A stretch of 44,789 bases of DNA from a virus. Every line of letters starts with the position of its first letter. Within the stretch, counting starts at the first letter, position 1. Shown here in pieces: positions 17,600 to 32,961 of this stretch. Location: the IMG/VR virus record IMGVR_UViG_3300042469_001163, positions 1-44,789 of that record; one strand, 5' to 3'. The translations under genes were made by a program, and so were the position numbers. The notes under the pieces were generated by a model. That model had not been told where the DNA came from. It did no database searches and was given only the letters and a program-made list of their open reading frames with translations.

Positions 17600-19129
17600 T
17601 TATGCCTCGTAGGTGTCTTCTTCTGGAACAAATCCCTTTTTACTGCGCTGCTTCTTGCCCGAAGGAGCATCGCCTACATTGTCCATAGTAACTTCTCCAG
17701 CTTTCTTTTCCTGAATCAAGTTCATTCTTTCACGATATGTATCCTTCGATATTTCAAACATGTCAAGAGTACCAATCTTATAATCAAAGCCAATCTTAAA
17801 TGCAAACCTTGACCGACCATTCCTGTGCTTAATGACAAAAACCCTTCCAACTTCAGCATCTTTTTCAAGAACTTGCTGATTAATTGACCAGAAAGCATCA
17901 AGAGGTTTGAACTGATCAAAGCTAGTGCCAATATTAGATTCATCAATATATTGACCAACTTCAAGTTTTGCAGCACTTTGGTTTGGCTGAACACATGTAA
18001 ATGTACAATGACCTTTTTCAACTCCATAACCACGAAGATCACGCAAAATACGATAAGCACTTTCATATTTTTTAACTGATGGATCGTCTTTCATTTCACC
18101 AACATAGTCAACAATTAAAACATTAGGCTTCCATCCTCTTAATTCTAATTGCGCCATATATGCTCTAATTCCATTGACATCAATCTGACCGCCGGGAAAC
18201 TGTTTGACGTGCAATAGATTTGGATCTTCTTTTTCCTTTTTGAATTCTTCAATAGTTGCTTTAATTTCATCCTTCATATCACGAAGATTATTGATGTCCA
18301 TCTTGGCAAACTGACTTGTAAATCTCTGAACAATACCAAGCTCATCCATTTCCAATGTAATATAAAGAACCTTATGGCCAAGTAAAACATTCTGAACAGC
18401 AGTTTTTACTAGAGCTAGAGACTTACCAGTTCCCGGCAAGCCAATCCAACTTCCAATCTGACCAGCAAACAATCCGCCGCCCGTCAAGGCATTGTCAATC
18501 GCTGGGAAACCCGATGTGAATCTATCTTTACCAATGAATACATCATCCATACGACGAAACATTTCGTCAATATTCATGAAGTATTCAAGACCCGGTTCGT
18601 AAGACCTATCCACGAGCATGGCTTCACGCATTTTTTCGTAAACAAAACTCCATGTTTTTTCATCTTCAGGAGCCTCTTGCATTTTTTCCAAACTAGAATG
18701 GAAAGCAAGCTTTACAGCTTGAACTTTAGCAAAATATGTTACCTTGTCTATCAGGTATTCACGAGAATCAACTCCCGGGACATAATAGTCATAAACACTT
18801 TTCAATTCAGCTTGATAATGCAACTGAATTGTACGATCACGATCTTTAAGGGCATTAGATAATTCTTGCTGAAGTATCCAATCCTTTGGTATAGACTTTT
18901 TGGTGCTAAAATATTCAAGAAGAATACGACAAATAATTACATGAGCCTCATTGCTAAAATATTCAGGTTTAATTTTATCCATCGACTGAACAAGCATATA
19001 ATCATCAGTCAAAATCATCGCCAACAATCTGCGCTGAAAAGTATCATCCCATGCAAATTTAGGCCTAATGACTTCTGGGTCAGTCATTGATTCAAGCTTG
19101 GCTTGTTCTTCTGGTGTGAGTTCACGCAT
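17600..19129 (-). CDS. dnaB: Replicative DNA helicase, DnaB / T4 gp41 type
   Basis: A 509-aa hexameric helicase that would unwind DNA ahead of the fork. The RecA-type core has Walker A GLPGTGKS at residues 230-237, LEMDE near 259 and Walker B VLIVDYVGEM near 336-345, followed by an acidic Ser/Lys C-terminus. The first 170 residues are the helical N-terminal domain (FQRRLLAMILTDDYML). Start: ATG at 19129 with AGGA 7 nt upstream; a TTG one codon earlier is less likely. The ribosome site and start lie in the loop of a 12-bp hairpin. Upstream on the same strand are the candidate small RNA and the polymerase gene. Confidence 0.92.
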   Translation of the reverse strand: MRELTPEEQAKLESMTDPEVIRPKFAWDDTFQRRLLAMILTDDYMLVQSMDKIKPEYFSNEAHVIICRILLEYFSTKKSIPKDWILQQELSNALKDRDRTIQLHYQAELKSVYDYYVPGVDSREYLIDKVTYFAKVQAVKLAFHSSLEKMQEAPEDEKTWSFVYEKMREAMLVDRSYEPGLEYFMNIDEMFRRMDDVFIGKDRFTSGFPAIDNALTGGGLFAGQIGSWIGLPGTGKSLALVKTAVQNVLLGHKVLYITLEMDELGIVQRFTSQFAKMDINNLRDMKDEIKATIEEFKKEKEDPNLLHVKQFPGGQIDVNGIRAYMAQLELRGWKPNVLIVDYVGEMKDDPSVKKYESAYRILRDLRGYGVEKGHCTFTCVQPNQSAAKLEVGQYIDESNIGTSFDQFKPLDAFWSINQQVLEKDAEVGRVFVIKHRNGRSRFAFKIGFDYKIGTLDMFEISKDTYRERMNLIQEKKAGEVTMDNVGDAPSGKKQRSKKGFVPEEDTYEA

Positions 19130-19157
19130 CAATTATTCCTGTAGGCTCACACCAGAA
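19109..19157 (-). promoter_or_regulatory. Hairpin exposing the helicase ribosome site and start codon in its loop
   Basis: TTCTGGTGTGAG at 19109-19120 is the exact reverse complement of CTCACACCAGAA at 19146-19157. In the helicase mRNA this makes a 12-bp stem with a 25-nt loop containing AGGA and ATG. Such a structure could present, or under protein binding block, the start; T4 genes are controlled by translational operators at starts. The regulator is not known. Confidence 0.65.
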
Positions 19158-19299: not shown

Positions 19300-19328
19300 A
19301 TTATATTGATCTCAATGCAGGAAATCAA
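19300..19328 (-). promoter_or_regulatory. Sigma70-type promoter for the candidate small RNA
   Basis: On the minus strand TTGATT (19328-19323), a 17-nt spacer and perfect TATAAT (19305-19300). It lies in the last codons of the upstream gene, and its predicted start falls at the first base of the RNA's closing stem. Confidence 0.6.
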
Positions 19329-19863
19329 ACTCGCTTAATGAAACCATACCACTACGAATTGATTTTTCACGGGTAATTCTTTTACCCATGCTCTTCTGAC
19401 CATTCCAAACAATTGCCTTGCAATATGTCGTGAACTTAGTGTCAATCTTCAAAGGAGCATCTTTTTTAGGCTGCTGATCCTTTGGAACAAATCTATTGAT
19501 AATGTTTTCAAGTAAATTTTCTTGAAAGCAACCATATTTCTGTCGGTTGGCTCCGTGACGAGTTCTATTCTCCCAAAGATTTTGAAGCTCTTCCAAAACT
19601 TTTTGAATAAAATTATCACTCACATACTTCTTAGCTACATCAAGACATCTCTCGATATAAACTTGCCTCTTGTAATAGCTTCCTGCCCTAAGCATACTCA
19701 TCTGAAGCTCTTGCTTTATATCTTCTGCGTCATCAATAAAATTATTATTGCTATTCTTCTTTTTCAATTCATGCGCTGCGTGCCAACAAAGCTTGGAAAA
19801 CTTTTTATCAAGATCAAAAAATTCAATTTCAGTAATTGGAAAATTGTGAACAATCTCAATCAT
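19312..19863 (-). CDS. Candidate sigma-factor-like protein (possible gp55-type late sigma)
   Basis: A 183-aa protein. NFIDDAEDIKQELQMSMLRA (about residues 40-60) resembles sigma region 2.2. TKFTTYCKAIVWNGQKSMGK (about 142-161) resembles the F-S/T-TY-C/A segment of region 2.3/2.4. The last residues, SEFDFLH, recall the C-terminal LDFLYE sliding-clamp contact of T4 gp55. Between these parts is a helical insert (VYIERCLDVAKKYV...). AAGGAGAAGAA precedes ATG. A gp55-like factor would direct late transcription. The match is by eye and unproven; a helicase-loader-type protein is an alternative. Confidence 0.4.
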   Translation of the reverse strand: MIEIVHNFPITEIEFFDLDKKFSKLCWHAAHELKKKNSNNNFIDDAEDIKQELQMSMLRAGSYYKRQVYIERCLDVAKKYVSDNFIQKVLEELQNLWENRTRHGANRQKYGCFQENLLENIINRFVPKDQQPKKDAPLKIDTKFTTYCKAIVWNGQKSMGKRITREKSIRSGMVSLSEFDFLH

Positions 19864-19873
19864 TTCTTCTCCT

Positions 19874-21187
19874 TTAAGACGTTTTTATCACTTTCAAATC
19901 GTTAAGATTGCGTCCACCACGACATGAAACCTTCAGTCGAAGTTTAGGACAAAGTTCAGATTCGCTTGTAAGCGCATCCATGCTTTTCTTGAAAATTTGT
20001 TTCCAGTTATCTTTAGTTACATAAATAACGTAACCGTCATGTACAGTATAAGCAATTTGAGCTTTGCCTTCCAACGCAAAATATAATTTAATCAACTTTT
20101 CTAGGCATATCGTTGCAGCAGGAGACTGCACAGCAAAATTTCTAGCAAGATATTCCTTGCCAACCTCAAAGTTTGTTCTTCGCTTACCGAAGATATCCTT
20201 TGCGTATCCATCTTTTTTAACTTTGCTTTCGCAATCGGCAACAAATGAAATAGCAGTGGGAAACAAAGAACTAATTCGCTCCACCACTTTCTCAGCCACA
20301 TCAGCCGCCAAACCACATCTCAAAGAAAGTGATCGGGCCGACTGTCCATATATAACAGGCAAGAAGCATTTTTTTGCCAATTCCCTATCATTTTTTTCTG
20401 GATCACTTGACATCAAGACCTGAAACAGTGCCGAATAAATATCATCACACTCACACAAACGCAATAGTTTAGAGTCTTGACTAGAGTTGGCTAACACAAA
20501 AACTTCCATACCCTTAAAATCAAAACTCATAAATAAATTATCACAACCAATCGGCTTCAAAACATCTTTCAAATCAGATCCCATTGTATGCGGAACAAAT
20601 GATTTTTTGTAAGCCCCATGACAACGTAATCGACCGTTTTCCTGACCATCAATCTCGTAGTAAGCGTGTACTTTGGCAGCACGTTCTACATCCAATATTC
20701 CTACACTCTCAAGATGAGGCAGAACTGTCGTCATTAACGGTAAATGAATCTTACGATAAATGTTTTCACTTTCTTTCCACAAACCCGACGAAACCAAATG
20801 CTTAATCCTATTCATCGCCTCAACAAACGAAACAGGAGCAACTTTTTTAATACCACTAAATGATTCTAATATCTTTATATCAATTATAGAAGCCTTTATA
20901 TCAAGACTCTTGCCAGTCTTACACAAAACATAGCTTGAAAAGTTCTTCCAATTCCAAGTAAAAACCTTTTTATCTTTTGAAAACAGTGATAATTGCAACA
21001 TACTCAAAATTAAAGGCAATGTATCATCACGAATCATTACTTGAAACGAAACACCATCAGAAAGCATGAACTGAAGCTCATTCTCCAAGTCTTTTTCAGC
21101 AATGTCCATGATCTCTGGATTAAACCGCAAGAAAACGGCTTTCTGATCAATTCCAGATAACAACTTGGCCAGAGATTCAAAATTCAT
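19874..21187 (-). CDS. DNA polymerase, family A, short form
   Basis: A 437-aa replicative-type polymerase. Motif A is FMSFDFKGMEVFVLANSSQD (Asp223, where PolA has DYSQIELR). Motif B is RELAKKCFLPVIYG (Arg268, Lys272, Tyr280-Gly281; Leu at the family Phe762 position). Motif C is YTVHDGYVIYV (His383-Asp384-Gly385, where the family has HDE). The N-terminal 130 residues look like a shrunken 3'-5' exonuclease domain (VFTWNWKNFSSYVL) without its acidic residues. AGGAGG precedes ATG. A separate DEDDh exonuclease at 33623 might proofread. T4 itself uses family B, so this is a real difference. Confidence 0.9.
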   Translation of the reverse strand: MNFESLAKLLSGIDQKAVFLRFNPEIMDIAEKDLENELQFMLSDGVSFQVMIRDDTLPLILSMLQLSLFSKDKKVFTWNWKNFSSYVLCKTGKSLDIKASIIDIKILESFSGIKKVAPVSFVEAMNRIKHLVSSGLWKESENIYRKIHLPLMTTVLPHLESVGILDVERAAKVHAYYEIDGQENGRLRCHGAYKKSFVPHTMGSDLKDVLKPIGCDNLFMSFDFKGMEVFVLANSSQDSKLLRLCECDDIYSALFQVLMSSDPEKNDRELAKKCFLPVIYGQSARSLSLRCGLAADVAEKVVERISSLFPTAISFVADCESKVKKDGYAKDIFGKRRTNFEVGKEYLARNFAVQSPAATICLEKLIKLYFALEGKAQIAYTVHDGYVIYVTKDNWKQIFKKSMDALTSESELCPKLRLKVSCRGGRNLNDLKVIKTS

Positions 21188-21424
21188 AGATCGTTCCTCC
21201 TAGGCCCAATTCTGCAAAACTTTTCCAGTTAAAACAAGACCAATTTATTTTTGAAATTTTTATTTACAATCAAACTTTGGAACGGGATGCTGACCTAAAT
21301 GGTAATTGCTGTATAAGTCAGTAAGAATAATGACTTATTAGGTAAACAAGATTAGTAGAGCAAAAATTTAGCGTTTAAGCTTATTCTTTTTGTTACTGTC
21401 TTATTCACTTCAGCTTTTACCTTT
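21188..21424 (-). other. Long polymerase leader with hairpins, no ORF
   Basis: An AT-rich stretch before the polymerase ribosome site. It holds a perfect 8-bp hairpin (ATAAGTCA 21313-21320, TGACTTAT 21331-21338) nested in a 6-bp repeat (ACCTAA 21293, TTAGGT 21338). No terminator with a T-tract is seen on the minus strand, so the large RNA upstream could run into the polymerase mRNA. Confidence 0.5.
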
Positions 21425-21701
21425 TGGTTGGTGAAGACTTGCGTACTTTTTTTTGCAGTAAACCTAAGATCGAATAGTCCATGGCATTGTGTTTGTTTGG
21501 GAGACACAGGAGCCATGAAAGTCAGCATAAATTCTATTCGACTTTACCTCTACTGCCGTGAGAACAATGCTACCCGTAATAGCATTTGTTGTAGAACAAC
21601 TACAAAGACCTGCCCATGGTATGGGCCTCACAGGTTAGGCACCTTCATCAACTCAGGTAGTACGAAACCATTGTTGAATCCAGTTGGGGGATTGCCAACC
21701 A
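21425..21701 (-). ncRNA. Candidate large structured noncoding RNA
   Basis: About 277 nt without a credible protein on either strand but dense in complementary segments. These include GCCCAT/ATGGGC (21612-21626) inside ACCT/AGGT, AATGCTA/TAGCATT (21566-21586), GTTGT/ACAAC (21588-21600), AAAGTC/GACTTT (21518-21545), and CATGGC/GCCATG enclosing TGTGT/ACACA (21480-21517). A long-range pairing TGGTTGG (21695-21701 read on the minus strand) with CCAACCA (21425-21431) can close the whole domain, competing with a local 5' hairpin GTTGG/CCAAC. A strong minus-strand promoter ends at its 5' edge. No match to tRNA, tmRNA or RNase P signatures was recognised. It could be a stand-alone RNA or a polymerase mRNA leader. 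Confidence 0.5.
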
Positions 21702-21702
21702 T

Positions 21703-21730
21703 ATTCTACAGATTAAAGCATGAATGTCAA
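21703..21730 (-). promoter_or_regulatory. Strong sigma70-type promoter for the structured RNA
   Basis: On the minus strand a perfect TTGACA (21730-21725), a 16-nt spacer and TAGAAT (21708-21703). It is the best promoter match seen in the window and sits 20 bp after the stop of the upstream glycosyltransferase gene, so transcription starts near 21696. Confidence 0.75.
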
Positions 21731-21750
21731 ATATTATTTGCCCCAAAATG

Positions 21751-22638
21751 TCAAAAAACTTGCTTCAACCATTCAATTTTTTGATCATAATTAAAAATAA
21801 TTTCTGGAAACTCTACTGGCAATTCATTAAAAGAACTTCTATCCTCAGGCAATATTTCCCTTACTTTTTCAATCAGCCTTTCATAACAAACACTACCGAA
21901 ACTACTATTTTTAGTTTTTTGTATGCTTTCTTGATTAGTTCTATCTAACATCTGTACATCACTAGCAAAACTTAACCAAAATGATATTTTACTTTCTTGA
22001 TGAAGTTTAAGAAGATTGAATTCAAGAAGTAGGTCTTCTCCCAATAATTGTTCTTCATCGTACCTTATCATGTTGCTTAATTTTTTACTATAAAATACAT
22101 GTCCACCTAAATTTCTTGCTGCCTTATGACCTAATGTAAATATATCATGCTTTTCGGGTCCATACTTATATCCAAGATTAATAATATTCATGCCCCAACA
22201 TACTGCATATTTATTTTCTCCAATCTGATTAGAGCCGTTTGTTTGTTCATTTAAAACTTGATCTGAAGGCTTGACAATTAAAACATCAGTTCCCGGGTGA
22301 TGCCTCATGTGTTTTTCAATTTGAATTGCGCCTGTTGGGTAAAATAGGTCGTCTCCATCAGTGAGACTCAGACCATCATATTCTGAGTTTTGCAAAAAAT
22401 CTAATACAGAGTTTTTACCCTTACTCGGAGTGCCATTTGATTCTGTAACTTTATATTTGACATTCTCTTTTTCGCACCATTCTGAAAAATGAGAAACAAA
22501 TTCTTGATTTTGAGAATTGATAATTGCAACTGTTTCTATTTCAATGGATTCGGTTGAAAATTGATTGCGACAAGAATTTGTGGCACGAATTGCCTTGTCC
22601 ATATCACGACTAACTAATGGGCAAAATGCTATTTTCAT
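21751..22638 (-). CDS. GT-A glycosyltransferase-like protein (GT2-type)
   Basis: A 295-aa protein. The N-terminus MKIAFCPLVSRDMDKAIRAT and a following TVAIINSQNQEFV fit the nucleotide-sugar fold. GLSLTDGDDLFYPTGAIQIE near residue 90 has the DxD metal motif (DGDD). It ends with a Trp/Phe-rich tail. It diverges from the gene at 22678 and is followed by the promoter of the structured RNA. It is one of many sugar-transfer genes in the window; donor and acceptor are unknown. Confidence 0.65.
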   Translation of the reverse strand: MKIAFCPLVSRDMDKAIRATNSCRNQFSTESIEIETVAIINSQNQEFVSHFSEWCEKENVKYKVTESNGTPSKGKNSVLDFLQNSEYDGLSLTDGDDLFYPTGAIQIEKHMRHHPGTDVLIVKPSDQVLNEQTNGSNQIGENKYAVCWGMNIINLGYKYGPEKHDIFTLGHKAARNLGGHVFYSKKLSNMIRYDEEQLLGEDLLLEFNLLKLHQESKISFWLSFASDVQMLDRTNQESIQKTKNSSFGSVCYERLIEKVREILPEDRSSFNELPVEFPEIIFNYDQKIEWLKQVF

Positions 22639-22677: not shown

Positions 22678-23391
22678 ATGAAGTCTGAAAAAAAAGAGGA
22701 TGACTACATGTGGCTCTTAGATGCAGTTGAAAAGTATAATATGGACGATCTTGAGGCAAAAGCTTGCAATCTTTCTGCAATGTGGCTTGAACAGAGCAGA
22801 AAAACATTTCCTGATTATCGTCACTCAACAATGAAAAAGGGCGACCCTAGAAAGTCTCTCATATTTAAAATAGCATATAAGCTTGCAAGAGAAACTCAGG
22901 GAATTCTTGAGAACAATGAATATTCACTTTATATCCGTGCTCAGTTAGAAGTTCTTAAATATATAAATTCTGGAAAAGATCATCCTCTTATTGATCCAAA
23001 CTGCTTAGTTGGCGAAAGAGCTTGGAAAAGATGGAAGCTTTGGAAGAAAAGGTACGACTCAGTCAAAAATAAACCAGCAGAATCTGTTGCTAATGGAATT
23101 GGATTCCAAAAAGCAATTGATGGAATTGAAAAAACAAAAGAATTTTTTGCTAAAATATTCGGCTCTGAACACACATTAAACAAAATGCAAGAATGTTATA
23201 TTAACAATAATATTTTCCGATGGATTAATCTTGGAAAAATTTCTCCTTATTATCTTGCTATTTCTTCATTTGTTAAAAAAATATTTACAGAAGATGATTA
23301 TAAGAAAATTAATTTTGAACTTGATGTTTATATGTCTTGCATTAATGACAATGTCAGAGAAAAATTTAAAGAATTATTTCCTTACGAATAA
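22678..23391 (+). CDS. Hypothetical helical protein
   Basis: A 237-aa protein starting MKSEKKEDDYMWLLDAVEKY with AAAGGAG upstream of ATG. It is predicted to be mostly helical, with aromatic and Lys-rich stretches (AWKRWKLWKKRYDSVKNK) and no membrane segment. Its end overlaps the convergent methyltransferase gene by 10 bp. I do not recognise it; its isolated plus-strand position gives no functional hint. Confidence 0.65.
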   Translation: MKSEKKEDDYMWLLDAVEKYNMDDLEAKACNLSAMWLEQSRKTFPDYRHSTMKKGDPRKSLIFKIAYKLARETQGILENNEYSLYIRAQLEVLKYINSGKDHPLIDPNCLVGERAWKRWKLWKKRYDSVKNKPAESVANGIGFQKAIDGIEKTKEFFAKIFGSEHTLNKMQECYINNNIFRWINLGKISPYYLAISSFVKKIFTEDDYKKINFELDVYMSCINDNVREKFKELFPYE

Positions 23392-24031: not shown

Positions 24032-24967
24032 TTATATTTCTCTGTAATATTTGTGTAAGGGACTTGTATAGAGGGTGTAATCTAAAAGAGCAGTTCTTAT
24101 ATAAAGACCATTCCTGACTTGTCTTTCATGATAGTCAGCACGAGAATCATCATCTATGTCTTCACTAATTTCTTCATTTCTAGGGAGAGGATGAAGAATT
24201 GCAGCGTTTTCTTTGATTTTATTGATATTGGTTTTGTCAATCTTAAAGAAATCTAGAGAACCACTGACACCTTTGAATCTTTCTTTTTGGATTCTGGTCA
24301 TATAAATGACATCGATTTCTGGAAGAATGTCATTTGCGTCACATATTTCAACATTTTTACAAGGAATATTTGCAAGGTATTTTTCAGGTATGCTCAAATC
24401 ACAATCTGCATGATCAGTGGCAGCGCAATAATATATTTTGCAACCATAAATGTGAAGAAGTTCAATAAGACTGTGTATTGTTCTTCCGTTTTTAAGATCT
24501 CCACACAACATAACCTTAAGATTACTGACATCTTTCCATTTTTGTTTAATTGTGTGAAGGTCAAGAAGTGCCTGTGTTGGATGTTCCCCAGATCCACTTC
24601 CTGCATTAATTACTGGAACACGAGAATATGCTCTTGCTATTTCTGGCCAGCTTGAATCACCATGACGCATAATTATAGCATCAGAATACTGGCCAAGGGT
24701 GCGAAATGTATCCTTGAGGCTTTCACCTTTGATTAAACTGCTACTTGAAGATGCATCAGCAGCCGTAACACATCTTCCTCCAAGCCAATGCATTGCTCGC
24801 TCAAAGGAAAATCTGGTTCTAGTAGAAGGTTCTGCAAAAAACGAAGAAATACATTTGTTGTTCATTTGGCGACAAAATTCCCAATTCTTTTCAATGTCTG
24901 TCGCAATTTCTAAAACAGTTTCAATTTGATCTTTAGTGAAGTCGGAAATGGACAAAAAATGACGCAT
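24032..24967 (-). CDS. pyrB: Aspartate carbamoyltransferase catalytic subunit
   Basis: A 311-aa enzyme joining carbamoyl phosphate and aspartate, the committed step of pyrimidine synthesis. All hallmark segments are visible: EPSTRTRFSFERAM, SSSSLIKGESLKDT, IIMRHGDSS, SGEHPTQALLDLHTI, GDLKNGRTIHSL, YMTRIQKERF and LHPLPR, then DSRADYHERQVRNGLYIRTA. The length equals E. coli PyrB. The ATG at 24967 (MRHFLSISDF) fits the family start and has GAGA upstream; a TTG 10 codons earlier has no site. No PyrI is nearby. A phage copy is unusual and would raise pyrimidine supply. Confidence 0.93.
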   Translation of the reverse strand: MRHFLSISDFTKDQIETVLEIATDIEKNWEFCRQMNNKCISSFFAEPSTRTRFSFERAMHWLGGRCVTAADASSSSSLIKGESLKDTFRTLGQYSDAIIMRHGDSSWPEIARAYSRVPVINAGSGSGEHPTQALLDLHTIKQKWKDVSNLKVMLCGDLKNGRTIHSLIELLHIYGCKIYYCAATDHADCDLSIPEKYLANIPCKNVEICDANDILPEIDVIYMTRIQKERFKGVSGSLDFFKIDKTNINKIKENAAILHPLPRNEEISEDIDDDSRADYHERQVRNGLYIRTALLDYTLYTSPLHKYYREI

Positions 24968-25016
24968 TTGTTCATCTCGTAATTTTTTGCTTGACAATTA
25001 ATTATATGTTGAGAAC

Positions 25017-26199: not shown

Positions 26200-26451
26200 A
26201 TGGCAACAAAAAAAACAACTTGTAATTTACCAGCTGGATTGAGCGAGTGTTGCATCAATCCATCTATTGTTTTTAAATGTCCTCCACATAAATCTTCAGA
26301 AGTATGTGTAGACAATCAAAGCGATGGAGCTTATGTTCCTCGCACTGTTTCTTATGAAGAAGCATATCGTCAATGTAAGTATATCAAGCAAACAAGTTAT
26401 CAAGGACAATATAAGCAATTTGGCAGCGCCTTCTCAAATAGCTTCAAATAG
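26200..26451 (+). CDS. Small Cys-containing protein before the collagen-like genes
   Basis: An 83-aa protein starting MATKKTTCNLPAGLSECC with six Cys (also FKCPPHKSS, EVCVDN, RQCKY) and a Ser/Gln/Tyr-rich C-terminus (TSYQGQYKQFGSAFSNSF). No strong ribosome site is seen. The TSYQGQYKQ tail vaguely resembles the Gln-Gly composition of the proteins downstream. It starts 7 bp before the first collagen-like gene and may be part of the same virion structure. Confidence 0.5.
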   Translation: MATKKTTCNLPAGLSECCINPSIVFKCPPHKSSEVCVDNQSDGAYVPRTVSYEEAYRQCKYIKQTSYQGQYKQFGSAFSNSFK

Positions 26452-26458
26452 GAAAAAA

Positions 26459-27943
26459 ATGATAAATCAAGGTAATCAAGAAAATTTTGATAACAAAGAA
26501 GAATTATTAATCAATAATTCCGCCTACGTCAAAGCTTTACAGCTTGGAGAACAAGGATATCAAGGATATCAAGGAACTAAAGGAACTCAAGGAACTCAAG
26601 GTTATCAAGGACCCGGAATAGGATCTCAAGGAAGACAAGGACATCAAGGAAGACAAGGAGAGCAAGGAGAGCAAGGATATCAAGGAAGACAAGGAAGACA
26701 AGGTCTGCAAGGAGAAAAAGGACTAACGGGACCACAAGGAGGATTAGGATTAACAGGAGTAAAAGGGGATAAAGGGAATCAGGGTCAACAAGGAGAAAAA
26801 GGATCTGTAGGCATAGGAAACCAAGGACAACAAGGAAATCTAGGACTTCAAGGACGACAAGGAAATAAAGGACTTCAAGGAGACTTTGGAAATCAAGGAG
26901 AAAGAGGAAATCAAGGTTTACAAGGAAGAGACGGTTTTCAAGGCACTATTGGATTTCAAGGTCGTCAGGGATTTCAAGGAAATCAAGGAAATCAAGGTTT
27001 TCAAGGATTTCAAGGTCGCCAAGGATTTCAAGGCCGTCAAGGAGAAAAGGGCTATCAAGGCAGTCAAGGTTTTCAGGGATATCAAGGTCATCAAGGTCGT
27101 CAAGGATTTCAAGGTCGCCAAGGATATCAAGGTCATCAAGGATATCAAGGATATCAAGGTCATCAAGGACGCCAAGGATTTCAAGGTCGCCAAGGATTTC
27201 AAGGTCATCAAGGATTTCAAGGTCGCCAAGGATTTCAAGGTCACCAAGGATTTCAAGGTCGCCAAGGAGAAAAAGGATTAATTGGAGTTCAAGGAGCAAT
27301 AGGATTAACTGGGGCAATAGGCCCACAAGGAAAACAAGGAATAAACGGCTTAGGAGGAGTTGTTGGTCCGAAAGGGTCTCAAGGCGCTCAAGGCGCAATA
27401 GGGCCGAAAGGATCAACAGGATCAACAGGCCCCAAAGGAGCAACAGGTGCGACAGGCCCCACAGGAGCAACAGGTGCGACAGGAGCAAAAGGATCAACAG
27501 GAGCAAAAGGAGCACAAGGTTCAGCAGGAGCTAAAAATGCAATTGTTCCAATTATACAAGAATATTCTGAAAAATATGTTGGCTTGTCTTGCGTAGAAAT
27601 GCCTGAAGTTCGGTTTGAAGATTTAGTTTTTACAGTTATTGGCAATCAAGGCACTAACAATCATAAAGATTTTATTAAATTAAATGATAGTTTTGTGCAA
27701 GTTTGCGATCCTCAGTCAATTGTCGTCGTCAGTGTAGTTCCATCAGCTCCAATTAACATTGGAGCATACATAGAAGGTGAATTTTTGTTTATCGAAGCAG
27801 AAAGCGAAAAGTTAATTGAAAATGAAATAAAATTAACAATTAGACTATCAGGAATTAGATTGGGCTTTAGCGGCAGAAGATTTGTTGAATACACATACAA
27901 AGAAATGATTAAAAACAATCAATTTTGGAATAGTTGGGAATAA
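26459..27943 (+). CDS. Collagen-like repeat protein, shorter paralogue
   Basis: A 494-aa protein. The N-terminus (about 30 residues, MINQGNQENFDNKEELLINN) leads into about 325 residues of Gly-X-Gln triplets, with Phe/Tyr/Arg/His/Asn at X, then Gly-Ala-Thr/Lys-rich triplets, and a C-terminal domain of about 135 residues ([17 protein letters not shown]...). That domain is paralogous to the one at the end of the larger protein. AGGAAAAA precedes ATG at 26459; an upstream in-frame ATG lies in another gene and is rejected. Gly-X-Y repeats form triple helices, and phage examples act as fibres or trimer stems. Attachment or capsid-surface display is inferred. Confidence 0.85.
   Translation: MINQGNQENFDNKEELLINNSAYVKALQLGEQGYQGYQGTKGTQGTQGYQGPGIGSQGRQGHQGRQGEQGEQGYQGRQGRQGLQGEKGLTGPQGGLGLTGVKGDKGNQGQQGEKGSVGIGNQGQQGNLGLQGRQGNKGLQGDFGNQGERGNQGLQGRDGFQGTIGFQGRQGFQGNQGNQGFQGFQGRQGFQGRQGEKGYQGSQGFQGYQGHQGRQGFQGRQGYQGHQGYQGYQGHQGRQGFQGRQGFQGHQGFQGRQGFQGHQGFQGRQGEKGLIGVQGAIGLTGAIGPQGKQGINGLGGVVGPKGSQGAQGAIGPKGSTGSTGPKGATGATGPTGATGATGAKGSTGAKGAQGSAGAKNAIVPIIQEYSEKYVGLSCVEMPEVRFEDLVFTVIGNQGTNNHKDFIKLNDSFVQVCDPQSIVVVSVVPSAPINIGAYIEGEFLFIEAESEKLIENEIKLTIRLSGIRLGFSGRRFVEYTYKEMIKNNQFWNSWE
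26551..27530 (+). repeat. Collagen-type triplet repeat array 1
   Basis: In-frame 9-nt units of the GGA-TTT-CAA type (Gly-X-Gln), in many near-identical copies, turning into GGA-GCA-ACA-type units near the end. Long antisense and out-of-frame ORFs here are shadows of the repetition. Confidence 0.9.
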
Positions 27944-27981
27944 GCTATTTTATAATAAATCAAAAAAAGTATAGGAATAAA

Positions 27982-30900
27982 ATGGCAAATCAATGCAATC
28001 AATCAGCAACGCAAAGAACAGAAGAAGAATTATTGTGTGTTTTTGCAGACAATAACCAAGGTGGAATTACCGCACAAGATCTGCGAGATTTTGTTGTTTC
28101 GACTCAAATTGGACAGTCAAAACAAGGACCACAAGGAAACCAAGGGCAATCTGGCTCACAAGGCAACCAAGGCTCACAAGGAAGAGCAGGGTCTCAAGGC
28201 GCTCAAGGTGGTCCTAGTATTGTTGCGGGTCCACAAGGCGCACAAGGTACAAAAGGAAATCAAGGAAATCAAGGATTACAAGGAAATCAAGGAACTATTG
28301 GCCTTCAAGGCAGTCCTGATGGATTCCAAGGAATTCAAGGTCTTCAGGGCGAACAAGGAATCAAAGGTGAACAAGGTCTTCAAGGCGAACAAGGAATCCA
28401 AGGTGCTGGATTTCAAGGAGATATTGGCCTACAAGGCTATCAAGGGTTCCAAGGTCAAGGATATCAAGGACAAAAGGGAAGTCAAGGAATTGATGGAGCA
28501 CAAGGACAACAAGGCGTTCAAGGTTTTCAAGGACCGCAAGGTGGAAAAGGCGCACAAGGAACAACAGGCGCAACAGGGATTGGAACACAAGGCGTTCAAG
28601 GGCTTCAAGGACTACAAGGCAATCAGGGAATTCAAGGCGCTGGATATCAAGGCGCTCAAGGATATCAAGGAAGACAAGGAACTATTGGATTACAAGGAAC
28701 TATTGGATTACAAGGACAACAAGGACAACAAGGCCAACAAGGATTTCAAGGACATCAAGGAAGACAAGGTTTAATAGGAAATCAAGGCGAAAAAGGGTTC
28801 CAAGGAGAACAAGGGCGACAAGGATTTCAAGGACATCAAGGAAGACAAGGTTTAATAGGAAATCAAGGCGAAAAAGGGTTCCAAGGAGAACAAGGGCGAC
28901 AAGGATTTCAAGGCCGTCAAGGGTTAACTGGAAATCAAGGATCAACTGGAAATCAAGGCGAAAAAGGGTTCCAAGGAAATCAAGGAAACCAAGGACAAGG
29001 ATTCCAAGGAAATCAAGGATTCCAAGGATTCCAAGGAAATCAAGGATTCCAAGGATTCCAAGGATTCCAAGGATTCCAAGGATATCAAGGATTAGGATAT
29101 CAAGGATACCAAAGCAACCAAGGATTCCAAGGGCTTCAAGGTTTCCAAGGAAATCAAGGCGAACAAGGGCTTCAAGGTTTCCAAGGAAATCAAGGCGAAC
29201 AAGGCTATCAAAGTGAACAAGGATTTCAAGGTGAACAAGGAAGACAAGGAAGACAAGGCGAACAAGGATATCAAGGAGATAAAGGCGAACAAGGATATCA
29301 AGGATTTCAAGGAATACTAGGAAGTCAAGGATTTCAAGGAATACTAGGAAGTCAAGGAAATAAAGGAGATACTGGAAATCAAGGCGAACAAGGATATCAA
29401 GGAAATCAAGGCTATCAAGGTCATCAAGGATTTACTGGAATTCAAGGAGATAGAGGATATCAAGGATATCAAGGTAGACAAGGAAGACAAGGCGAACAAG
29501 GCGATGTTGGATTAACTGGCAATCAAGGAAGCCTAGGATATCAAGGAGAACAAGGATATCAAGGATTAGGATATCAAGGAGAAACAGGATATCAAGGATA
29601 TCAAAGCAATCAAGGATACCAAGGAAATCAAGGTGAACAAGGATATCAAGGACTAGGATATCAAGGAGAAACTGGAAATATAGGAGATGTAGGATATCAA
29701 GGATATCAAGGAAATCAAGGTGAACAAGGATATGTAGGACAACAAGGAAGCGAAGGTGAGCGAGGATACCAAGGATATCAAGGAATCCAAGGATTTCAAG
29801 GTCGTCAAGGATACCAAGGAAATCAAGGAGATAGAGGATATCAAGGATTTCAAGGAACTCAAGGAGCACAAGGAGATCTTGGATTAACTGGTTACCAAGG
29901 ACAAATAGGCTATCAAGGTCTGCAAGGTGAACAAGGATATCAAGGTTTTCAAGGGTTCCAAGGATATCAAGGACTAGGATATCAAGGGTTCCAAGGATAT
30001 CAAGGGTTCCAAGGATATCAAGGGTTCCAAGGATATCAAGGATTTCAGGGATATCAAGGATTTCAGGGATTCCAAGGTACTATTGGAATTACTGGCGCTC
30101 AAGGCATAACTGGCGCTCAAGGATCTCAAGGATTCCAAGGCTATCAGGGAAATCAAGGATTCCAAGGGTTTCAAGGATTCCAAGGTTACCAAGGAAATCA
30201 AGGTCATCAAGGTTATCAAGGGCTACAAGGCTATCAAGGTTATCAAGGGCTGCAAGGATTTCAGGGAAATCAAGGAAATCAAGGGCTGCAAGGTAGTCCC
30301 GATGGATTTCAAGGAGGCCAAGGTTATCAAGGGTTCCAAGGTCATCAGGGAGAACAAGGCTATCAAGGAAATCAAGGATTCCAAGGGTTCCAAGGTCATC
30401 AAGGAAATCAAGGATTCCAAGGGTTTCAAGGTCATCAAGGAAATCAAGGATTCCAAGGGTTCCAAGGAAATCAGGGAGAACAAGGCTATCAGGGAAACCA
30501 AGGATTCCAAGGGTTCCAAGGATTTCAGGGAAACCAAGGCTATCAAGGGTTCCAAGGAAATCAAGGCAATCAGGGAGAACAAGGATTCCAAGGGTTCCAA
30601 GGATTTCAGGGAAACCAAGGCTATCAAGGGTTCCAAGGAAATCAAGGCAATCAGGGAGAACAAGGATTTCAAGGATTCCAAGGATTTCAGGGAAATCAAG
30701 GTAATCAGGGAGAACAAGGGGCTGGTTATCAAGGAAATCAAGGTTACCAAGGAAATCAAGGGCTGCAAGGTAGTCCCGATGGATTCCAAGGAGGCCAAGG
30801 CTATCAAGGGTTCCAAGGGTTACAAGGAAATCAAGGCTATCAAGGGAACCAAGGCTATCAAGGGTTCCAAGGTCATCAGGGAGAACAAGGCTATCAGGGA

Positions 30901-32961
30901 AATCAAGGATTCCAAGGATTCCAAGGCCATCAAGGAAATCAAGGATTCCAAGGGTTCCAAGGAAATCAGGGAGAACAAGGCTATCAGGGAAACCAAGGAT
31001 TCCAAGGGTTCCAAGGTCATCAGGGAGAACAAGGCTATCAGGGAAATCAAGGATTCCAAGGATTCCAAGGCCATCAAGGAAATCAAGGATTCCAAGGGTT
31101 CCAAGGTCATCAGGGAGAACAAGGCTATCAGGGAAATCAAGGATTCCAAGGGTTCCAAGGTCATCAAGGAGAACAAGGTTATCAGGGAAATCAAGGTTTT
31201 CAAGGATTCCAAGGTCATCAGGGAGAACAAGGCTATCAAGGAAATCAAGGATTCCAAGGATTCCAAGGTTATCAAGGAAATCAAGGGTTCCAAGGGTTTC
31301 AAGGAAATCAAGGATTCCAAGGATATCAAGGAAACTTGGGATATCAAGGAGATGCTGGTGAATCTGGTGTTCAAGGACCGCAAGGCATTACAGGCACTGG
31401 ACTACAAGGCAATCAGGGATTACAAGGTCCTGCTGATGGATTTCAAGGATATCAAGGATATCAAGGATATCAAGGATCAATAGGGAGTCAAGGTGTTGCT
31501 GGAACAGGTGGTCAAGGCTATCAAGGAAACCAAGGAACTCAGGGATATCAAGCATATCCTTTTGGATTTCAAGGCAGTCAAGGCAACGTAGGAAGCCAAG
31601 GATTCCAAGGACCAGCTAATGGTTTTCAAGGAAGACAAGGCGCACAAGGAAGACAAGGATTCCAAGGAAACCAAGGAAATCAAGGAGAACAAGGAAATCA
31701 AGGCAATCAAGGAGCAGGATTCCAAGGCAATCAGGGATTGCAAGGCCCTGCCGATGGATTTCAAGGATATCAAGGTAACCAAGGATATCAAGGTAACCAA
31801 GGATATCAAGGTAACCAAGGAAGACAAGGATATCAAGGAAGACAAGGATATCAAGGCAACCAAGGAAATCAAGGTTTTCAAGGTCCTGCCGATGGATTTC
31901 AAGGCATTCAAGGAAATCAAGGATCTTTATTTGGTCCAAAATATAAGTATGAGTCGGTATATGGTAATCAAGCTCCATCTGCTGGTTATATTCACTTTAA
32001 TAATGCAACAATAAGTAATGTAACTCAGATTTACATCAAAAAAGTTGATTATAACGGTATAGATGAAGGAAATTACATCGAAGATTTTATTGTAAATAAT
32101 TACATTTACATTGAATCCGACAATACAACAAATTTAGCAATATTTAATTCAAATGGAAGTCCCATTGGCTACCAGTCTGGGGGATATTCTGGATTTCCAA
32201 TAGATTATTATTCAGTTCCAGTCAATTTTGTTTCTGGAAACGCATTAGTAAATCAAGAAATTTATAGCTTACTTACAGGAATAACAGGGAATCAAGGTTA
32301 TCAAGGTTATCAAGGTTATCAAGGAAATCAGGGTACAATTGGGGCACAAGGAAATCAAGGTGGACCAGCTGGATTTCAAGGCCAAACAGGAGCACAAGGG
32401 CCTAAAGGCGATCAAGGCGATCAAGGTGATCAAGGTGAGCCGGGTCCTCTAGGAGAACAAGGTCCTCCCGGCGAAAATGGTTCTGGATTGCAAGGTTCAG
32501 CCGGAGCACAAGGCGCACAAGGCGCAGAAGGTCCACAAGGTGATAAGTATGCGATCCTTCCTGTTGTTACTTCTCAAGGAACTGAATATGTTGAGCTTAT
32601 ATGTGTAGAAATGCCAGAAGTTAGATTTGAAGATATCGTCATATTCAAGGTTGGTGGACTTGGACATAAAACAGAAAATGTTTCAAAATTTATTGATGAT
32701 CGGTTGTTACAAGTTTGTGCCTTTAACACAATAAAACCTGTAAGTGTTGTTCCATCAATGCCAGTTATTGTTGGAGCTTATGTGAGAGACAATCTTATTA
32801 TTATTGATGTGGAAAGCGATAAGCTTATCAATAATCAAATTGAAGTGGTAGTGAGACTTTCTGGAATAAGGGCTGGCGCTGCACATAAGAGATTCGCAAC
32901 CCATACCTACGAAGAAATGGTTAGGAATAATACATTCTGGAGTAGATGGAGAGAAGGTTAA
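27982..32961 (+). CDS. Giant collagen-like fibre protein
   Basis: A 1659-aa protein. Residues 1-45 carry [20 protein letters not shown] followed by DLRDFVVST, an N-terminal segment typical of phage fibre proteins. Residues about 46-1313 are Gly-X-Gln triplets with Phe/Tyr/Asn/His/Glu at X and very little Pro. Breaks recur as GSPDG (3 times), GPADG (3), GPANG (1) and GLG. Residues about 1316-1430 form a non-collagen domain ([20 protein letters not shown]), followed by about 90 further triplet residues and a C-terminal domain paralogous to the shorter protein's. AGGAATAAA precedes ATG. At 0.286 nm per residue the main helix would span about 360 nm if continuous. It is probably a surface fibre or tail-fibre-like adhesin. 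Confidence 0.88.
28120..31929 (+). repeat. Collagen-type triplet repeat array 2, with 81-nt tandem duplications
   Basis: About 3.8 kb of Gly-X-Gln codons. Exact or nearly exact 81-nt (27-aa) units are duplicated in tandem at 28740/28821 and again near 30503/30584, and 54-nt units recur from 30850 to 31260, indicating recent expansion by slippage or recombination. Confidence 0.9.
32281..32544 (+). repeat. Collagen-type triplet repeat array 3
   Basis: A short Gly-X-Y block ([10 protein letters not shown], later [13 protein letters not shown] and [10 protein letters not shown]) between the inserted globular domain and the C-terminal domain. It is richer in Pro and Asp than array 2, closer to classical phage collagen. 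Confidence 0.85.

Follow-up and report, generated by a model that had tools for sequence, protein, structure and literature searches.

In origins of the T4 R-loop type, a transcript made from a phage promoter opens the phage origin, and we know of no conserved complex fold for these T4 origin transcripts. The T4 proteins gp43 and gp32 each bind the leader of their own mRNA. Little is known of how large phages initiate replication, and a conserved origin RNA with a complex tertiary fold provides a testable handle. Around 30% of huge phages show the skew of bidirectional replication (PMC7162821), and RNA II, transcribed at the ColE1 origin and noncoding, leaves a remnant that serves Pol I as primer (PMC5043065). 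Here we show by computation that a conserved ~450-nt RNA, encoded in a 44.8-kb viral fragment (the whole stretch of DNA analysed, hereafter the window), forms a new RNA family with a defined fold.

A structured RNA in the longest noncoding gap

The noncoding gap at 21188-21750 is 563 nt long and by far the longest of the window (runner-up 203 nt), as a sequence-only reading of this DNA had already stated. That reading had also placed the window's best promoter match here: the site is present and matches 11 of 12 consensus positions, but it is tied with two other 11/12 sites in the window, one of which has a poor 19-nt spacer. Near relatives carry promoters in the same place (TTGACA-17-TATAAT in L029, TTGACT-17-TACAAT in L036). 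A perfect 13-nt inverted repeat of the window (21722-21734 and 22453-22465) contains the -35 box of this promoter (ATATTTGACATTC), and its second copy lies within the upstream gene, facing the divergent gene.

The block of roughly 277 nt proposed downstream of the promoter (21425-21701, minus strand) is indeed structured, with a fold of -87.4 kcal/mol and a z of -3.96 that none of 200 shuffles equalled, and it contains the local hairpins claimed for it, five or more in number. It was drawn too short, however, as conservation runs on to ~21253 and the 3' third of the RNA had been missed; the full 462 nt fold with a z of -4.39. The 5' end of the RNA given below is inferred from the promoter, and its 3' end (~21253) is the limit of conservation.

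21703-21730, minus strand: sigma-70-like promoter of the RNA, TTGACA-16-TAGAAT (11/12 consensus match; z 3.9 over shuffles)
21253-21697, minus strand: structured noncoding RNA of ~445 nt (~450), from the relatives' alignment, fold and covariation
21683-21699, minus strand: 5' hairpin P0 (GUUGG/CCAAC), read directly from the window sequence; the automatic search did not pick it
21648-21677, minus strand: hairpin P1; its loop, CGUACU at 21659-21664, takes part in pseudoknot PK1
21556-21633, minus strand: four-way-junction core, closing helix P2 with P3, P4 and P5 (covariance model R1)
21612-21626, 21588-21600 and 21566-21586, minus strand: core hairpins P3, P4 and P5, respectively
21455-21556, minus strand: long hairpin P6, with changes on both sides in 12 of 14 pairs
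21442-21447, minus strand: 3' strand of PK1, AGUACG, pairing with the P1 loop at 21659-21664
21313-21408, minus strand: 3' region with the predicted hairpins P8 and P9, from alignment conservation and the minimum-energy fold
21282-21294, minus strand: 3' element GUCAGCAU-CCCGU, GUCAGCAU forming PK3 and CCCGU forming PK2
21253-21271, minus strand: A/T-rich 3' segment GATTGTAAATAAAAATTTC, kept in close relatives

The predicted start of the RNA lies inside P0 or at its first bases, and counterparts of it, 5-bp hairpins with a loop of the CUCUCU type, occur at the 5' end in several diverged relatives (stems GGACG/CGUCC, GAAGG/CCUUC, GGAAG/CUUCC and UGGAG/CUCCA). The outer stem of P1 pairs poorly in the alignment (62%), while its inner G-C pairs show little or no variation. 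Within P6, AGGUAAA/UUAGGU makes up a conserved internal loop, and the inner strand AUGCUGAC (21521-21528) takes part in PK3; P8 carries a conserved UUAAAC motif (21371-21380), and P9 occupies 21313-21339.

Covariation and pseudoknots

A covariation check with a model built from relatives, as the sequence-only reading had suggested, revealed extensive compensatory changes in homologues. In the full-length alignment of 10 sequences, 91% of the cells pair and 38 of 64 pairs have changes on both sides; none of 500 shuffles reached the real value, and slid controls gave 30-43% paired. For the core model R1 the figures are 94% of cells paired and 14 of 22 pairs with both-side changes, again with 0 of 500 shuffles.

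Besides these helices, the RNA contains three long-range covarying pseudoknots, PK1 to PK3, two of which tie the 3' element, outside the block described earlier, to the core. PK1 joins the P1 loop with the strand just 3' of P6; the window pairing CGUACU/AGUACG is replaced elsewhere by UGUACU/AGUACA, CGCACU/AGUGCG, AGUAUC/GAUACU, UGCGUU/AACGCA or GUACCC/GGGUAC. PK2 connects the P5 loop ACGGG (21573-21577) with CCCGU of the 3' element and occurs in the types CGGG/CCCG, CGAG/CUCG and CAAG/CUUG, while PK3 pairs AUGCUGAC of P6 with GUCAGCAU of the same 3' element (types GCUGAC/GUCAGC, GCCGAC/GUCGGC and GCAGA/UCUGC), and is weak or absent in L045, L048, L050 and L070. For PK1 we counted 10 distinct covarying combinations, and its own pairs beat all 20000 permutations. 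Since the pseudoknot strands had first been picked by eye, a register-free test was run as a guard, in which the longest complementary run in fixed windows was compared between a sequence's own partner and the partners of other sequences. The runs for own versus other partners were 5.9 versus 4.1 bases for PK1, 4.7 versus 3.8 for PK2 and 6.1 versus 4.1 for PK3. The observed sum was reached by 0, 1 and 0 permutations, respectively, each of 20000; these permutations are uncorrected for relatedness, but the changes nonetheless arise in several separate lineages.

A long-range closing helix, TGGTTGG with CCAACCA, had been proposed as well, together with a two-state switch in which a 5' hairpin competes with it. 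This helix is unconserved even in near relatives, where 1 of 7 pairs is kept in L029, 1 of 7 in L035 and 4 of 7 in L036. The two-state switch is therefore unsupported, and it is the 5' hairpin that represents the conserved element.

No conserved ORF was found in the RNA region: a 118-aa plus-strand frame is not kept in relatives, in line with the earlier statement that the block holds no credible ORF. The statement that it matches no known RNA class was followed up with Rfam 15, where gathering and relaxed thresholds yielded no family match, apart from chance snoRNA matches. The Rfam covariance models of GOLLD and ROOL matched no member searched, no described RNA II family was hit by sequence or covariance (Rfam, gathering or relaxed thresholds), and group I/II introns, RNase P, tmRNA and 6S gave no match with Rfam models or ARAGORN. 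The RNA class, as distinct from any mechanism, is regarded as new, with no Rfam relative and no paper in limited, open-access literature searches. The proposal of an undescribed phage noncoding RNA is thus well supported by covarying homologues, by the lack of an Rfam match and by the promoter at the 5' end.

Distribution of the RNA

Relatives were found in IMG/VR with the adjoining family A DNA polymerase (PolA) as bait, on contigs of up to 381 kb that are all metagenomic and probably incomplete. The RNA is kept in relatives whose PolA is 39-76% identical, and nearly all relatives with a PolA at least 39-40% identical have it in the gap before PolA. R1 matched only PolA-adjacent sites, one per contig, and its position is identical at every core-model locus, always in the intergenic region ahead of PolA. 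This linkage also holds from the RNA side, as a search with the RNA pattern found the new locus L192, which has a 39% identical PolA just downstream. The pattern search gave no RNA elsewhere in viral contigs among the matches listed, a pattern scan of bacterial and archaeal genomes found none, and a direct DNA search of annotated phages returned chance matches only. Matches of loose patterns to viral contigs were mostly due to chance, and two loci with model scores near 20 bits (L172, L105) were rejected, having no adjoining PolA and lying in or beside coding sequence; L070 and L045 (26 bits) were accepted solely for their position before PolA and for keeping PK1 and PK2. Seven IMG/VR contigs from different samples (L001-L007) encode a PolA 100% identical to that of the window, and their RNA region is identical too.

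The replication block and its origin

The RNA lies in a syntenic replication block that consists of a divergent gene, the RNA, PolA, a 183-aa protein and a DnaB-like helicase.

22678-23391, plus strand: divergent gene (237 aa) at the opposite flank of the origin region, orientation kept in most relatives examined
19874-21187, minus strand: family A DNA polymerase (PolA), 437 aa (Pfam DNA_pol_A, 1.7e-27; model pLDDT 88)
19312-19863, minus strand: 183-aa protein, family unknown, with 57-86% identity across all relatives examined
17600-19132, minus strand: DnaB-like helicase (Pfam DnaB_C), syntenic

The structure model of PolA matches Pol nu, Pol theta and Pol I, and the relatives' contigs encode one PolA and no PolB each. 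A PADLOC match to 'RTasPolA' was discarded, as it reflects PolA-domain similarity only and no reverse transcriptase was found nearby. The 183-aa protein has no match in Pfam or PHROG and exceeds PolA in conservation. In the relatives examined, its gene separates PolA from the DnaB-like helicase, and the protein is possibly an origin or helicase-loading factor. Because the whole neighbourhood is syntenic, the idea of the RNA as a specific partner of PolA is weakened.

The window also encodes gp32-like, RecA and DEAD-box helicase proteins. Further genes are a phage-encoded aspartate/ornithine carbamoyltransferase (24032-24997), two collagen-like genes of the tail-fibre type (539 and 1675 aa, within 26324-32961) and, elsewhere, genes for a glycosyltransferase, a UDP-galactopyranose mutase and a sulfotransferase. 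The distant relative L066 has a CRISPR-like array with the repeat GGTGTGGAACACCTTGAATTGTAGGTAGACCGCAAC immediately upstream of PolA, within ~800 nt (PolA start 3001).

The cumulative GC skew minimum falls within ~2 kb of the locus in G001, G002 and G008, and the strongest GC-skew rise, with or without correction for gene direction, within ~5 kb in most of 12 contigs. Once gene direction was regressed out, the steepest change of skew over 40 kb was at most ~5 kb away in G001-G003, G005-G008, G012 and G014, the skew results for G002 and G005 being limited by the contig edge. Support from the skew is weak or lacking in G004 and G013, and G011 was positive at other window sizes of the skew analysis. 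In the pooled skew of ten contigs, the sign change lies ~1.5 kb ahead of the PolA ATG, which places it at the RNA or immediately upstream. Since the switch lies at the locus in most large related contigs, our computations place the RNA at or next to the replication origin of the syntenic block, a position that had escaped the sequence-only reading.

The skew switch is also located at PolA in G003, G007, G008, G011 and G012, all without a recognised RNA of the family, which indicates that the origin is older than, or independent of, the RNA. G011 and G012 are distant relatives in which PolA is still at the switch although the core model detects no RNA; consequently that origin can work without the RNA, whose presence at the locus might reflect synteny alone. 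G003 and G007 have a different folded sequence at the locus, and L057 (in G008) has neither a significant fold nor a recognised RNA there. A strongly folded sequence other than the RNA (z -4.27) occupies the same place in the close relatives L040, L042 (2480-2900) and L043, whose PolA is 54-55% identical; it is nearly invariant among the three and not matched by R1 even with filters off, and it may also have a four-way junction.

Discussion

To our knowledge, few RNAs of this size have three covarying pseudoknots, and most of those with known functions are ribozymes or parts of essential ribonucleoproteins. From the computed fold and location we infer a role in replication initiation: with a probability of roughly 40%, the locus encodes a free-standing, ~450-nt noncoding RNA of the origin, with its own promoter and three pseudoknots, that most likely acts in this process. 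The RNA would be transcribed from its promoter at 21703-21730 across the origin, would fold during transcription around the four-way junction and would be locked by the three long-range pseudoknots. The folded transcript might then remain on its template and be extended as a primer by the neighbouring family A polymerase, or it might mark and open the origin for replication proteins. Such an initiation would proceed much as ColE1 RNA II works with Pol I, with no claim to membership of that family. In this way, the replication of these large bacterial DNA viruses may involve a previously unseen kind of RNA.

A wider claim, that pseudoknotted RNAs of this sort are a new class of origin RNA that starts large-phage genome replication by folding on its own origin, replaces an initiator protein and serves as primer or loading platform for a family A polymerase, appears rather doubtful to us. 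Several points speak against a role of the RNA in initiation, namely the RNA-less origin of G011 and G012, the weak or absent skew support from G004 and G013, the Toprim primase encoded by some of these phages and the rarity of RNase H, for which a host enzyme could serve. RNase H (PF00075) was detected in 1 of 12 contigs, G011, which lacks the RNA (gene at C1:204671-205114, just upstream of PolA), and a 5'-3' exonuclease domain in none of the contigs searched, so that processing of a primer would need host enzymes.

A serious rival, although we lean against it, is that the transcript is a stable trans-acting RNA unrelated to initiation, such as an RNA-only particle, a protein scaffold, a regulator or a ribozyme, which would owe its place near the origin to a clustering of early, high-copy genes. 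Its structural complexity without conserved coding potential resembles the ornate GOLLD and ROOL RNAs (PMC12286853), and both its own promoter and the presence of the origin in relatives without the RNA would fit; however, the RNA always precedes PolA in core-model loci and occurs nowhere else among the viral matches listed.

The sequence-only reading had also considered a regulatory leader of the polymerase mRNA. That the RNA is a long structured 5' leader controlling PolA expression, for example as an autoregulatory site bound by PolA, is less likely but likewise a serious rival. It does lie on the strand of PolA, ~65 nt from the ATG in the window, and as the PolA gene of the window lacks a clear promoter (z 0.0) and a search downstream of the RNA gave no terminator there, read-through into PolA is possible. 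Nevertheless, a promoter-like site separates the RNA from PolA in many relatives, apparently most of them, and the mean promoter z amounts to 1.70 upstream of the RNA and 1.41 upstream of PolA, compared with 0.06 inside the RNA. In addition, conservation of the RNA stops ~65 nt before the window PolA ATG, and further away in other relatives. The stretch from the RNA to the start codon lacks conservation and so gives no sign of a conserved contact with the ribosome-binding site, and the alignment of relatives contains no conserved structure that reaches this site. The RNA is also far larger than known operators of such a kind.

Very improbable is a function of the DNA itself, as origin hairpins and sites for replication proteins: the locus is at the skew switch, but the compensatory changes respect the nested and pseudoknotted pairing of a single folded strand and accept G-U pairs, and neither DnaA boxes nor iterons were found there.

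Compared with known systems, the RNA shares with GOLLD and ROOL that it is large, ornate, phage-encoded, pseudoknotted and devoid of coding potential, but it has no Rfam match and always lies at the origin-PolA locus. Like the translational operators of T4 gp43 and gp32, it is a structure upstream of a phage replication gene; those operators are small and lie beside the ribosome-binding site, whereas here a 445-nt RNA with its own promoter is followed by a non-conserved gap before the start codon. With T4-type R-loop origins, the proposed initiation has in common a transcript from a phage promoter at the origin. In contrast to ColE1 RNA II, the RNA described here has no sequence or Rfam match to it, contains three long-range pseudoknots and is paired with a phage-encoded polymerase; features of the ColE1 system are also an antisense RNA I from the opposite strand, an RNA-DNA switch site and an RNA-DNA hybrid that RNase H cuts and Pol I extends. 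As in ColE1-type systems, a noncoding sequence is found at the replication origin, here at the skew switch and without a conserved ORF, and both RNAs, ours as a predicted transcript, are structured, noncoding and ~450-550 nt long, are located at the origin, have their own promoter and concern a family A polymerase.
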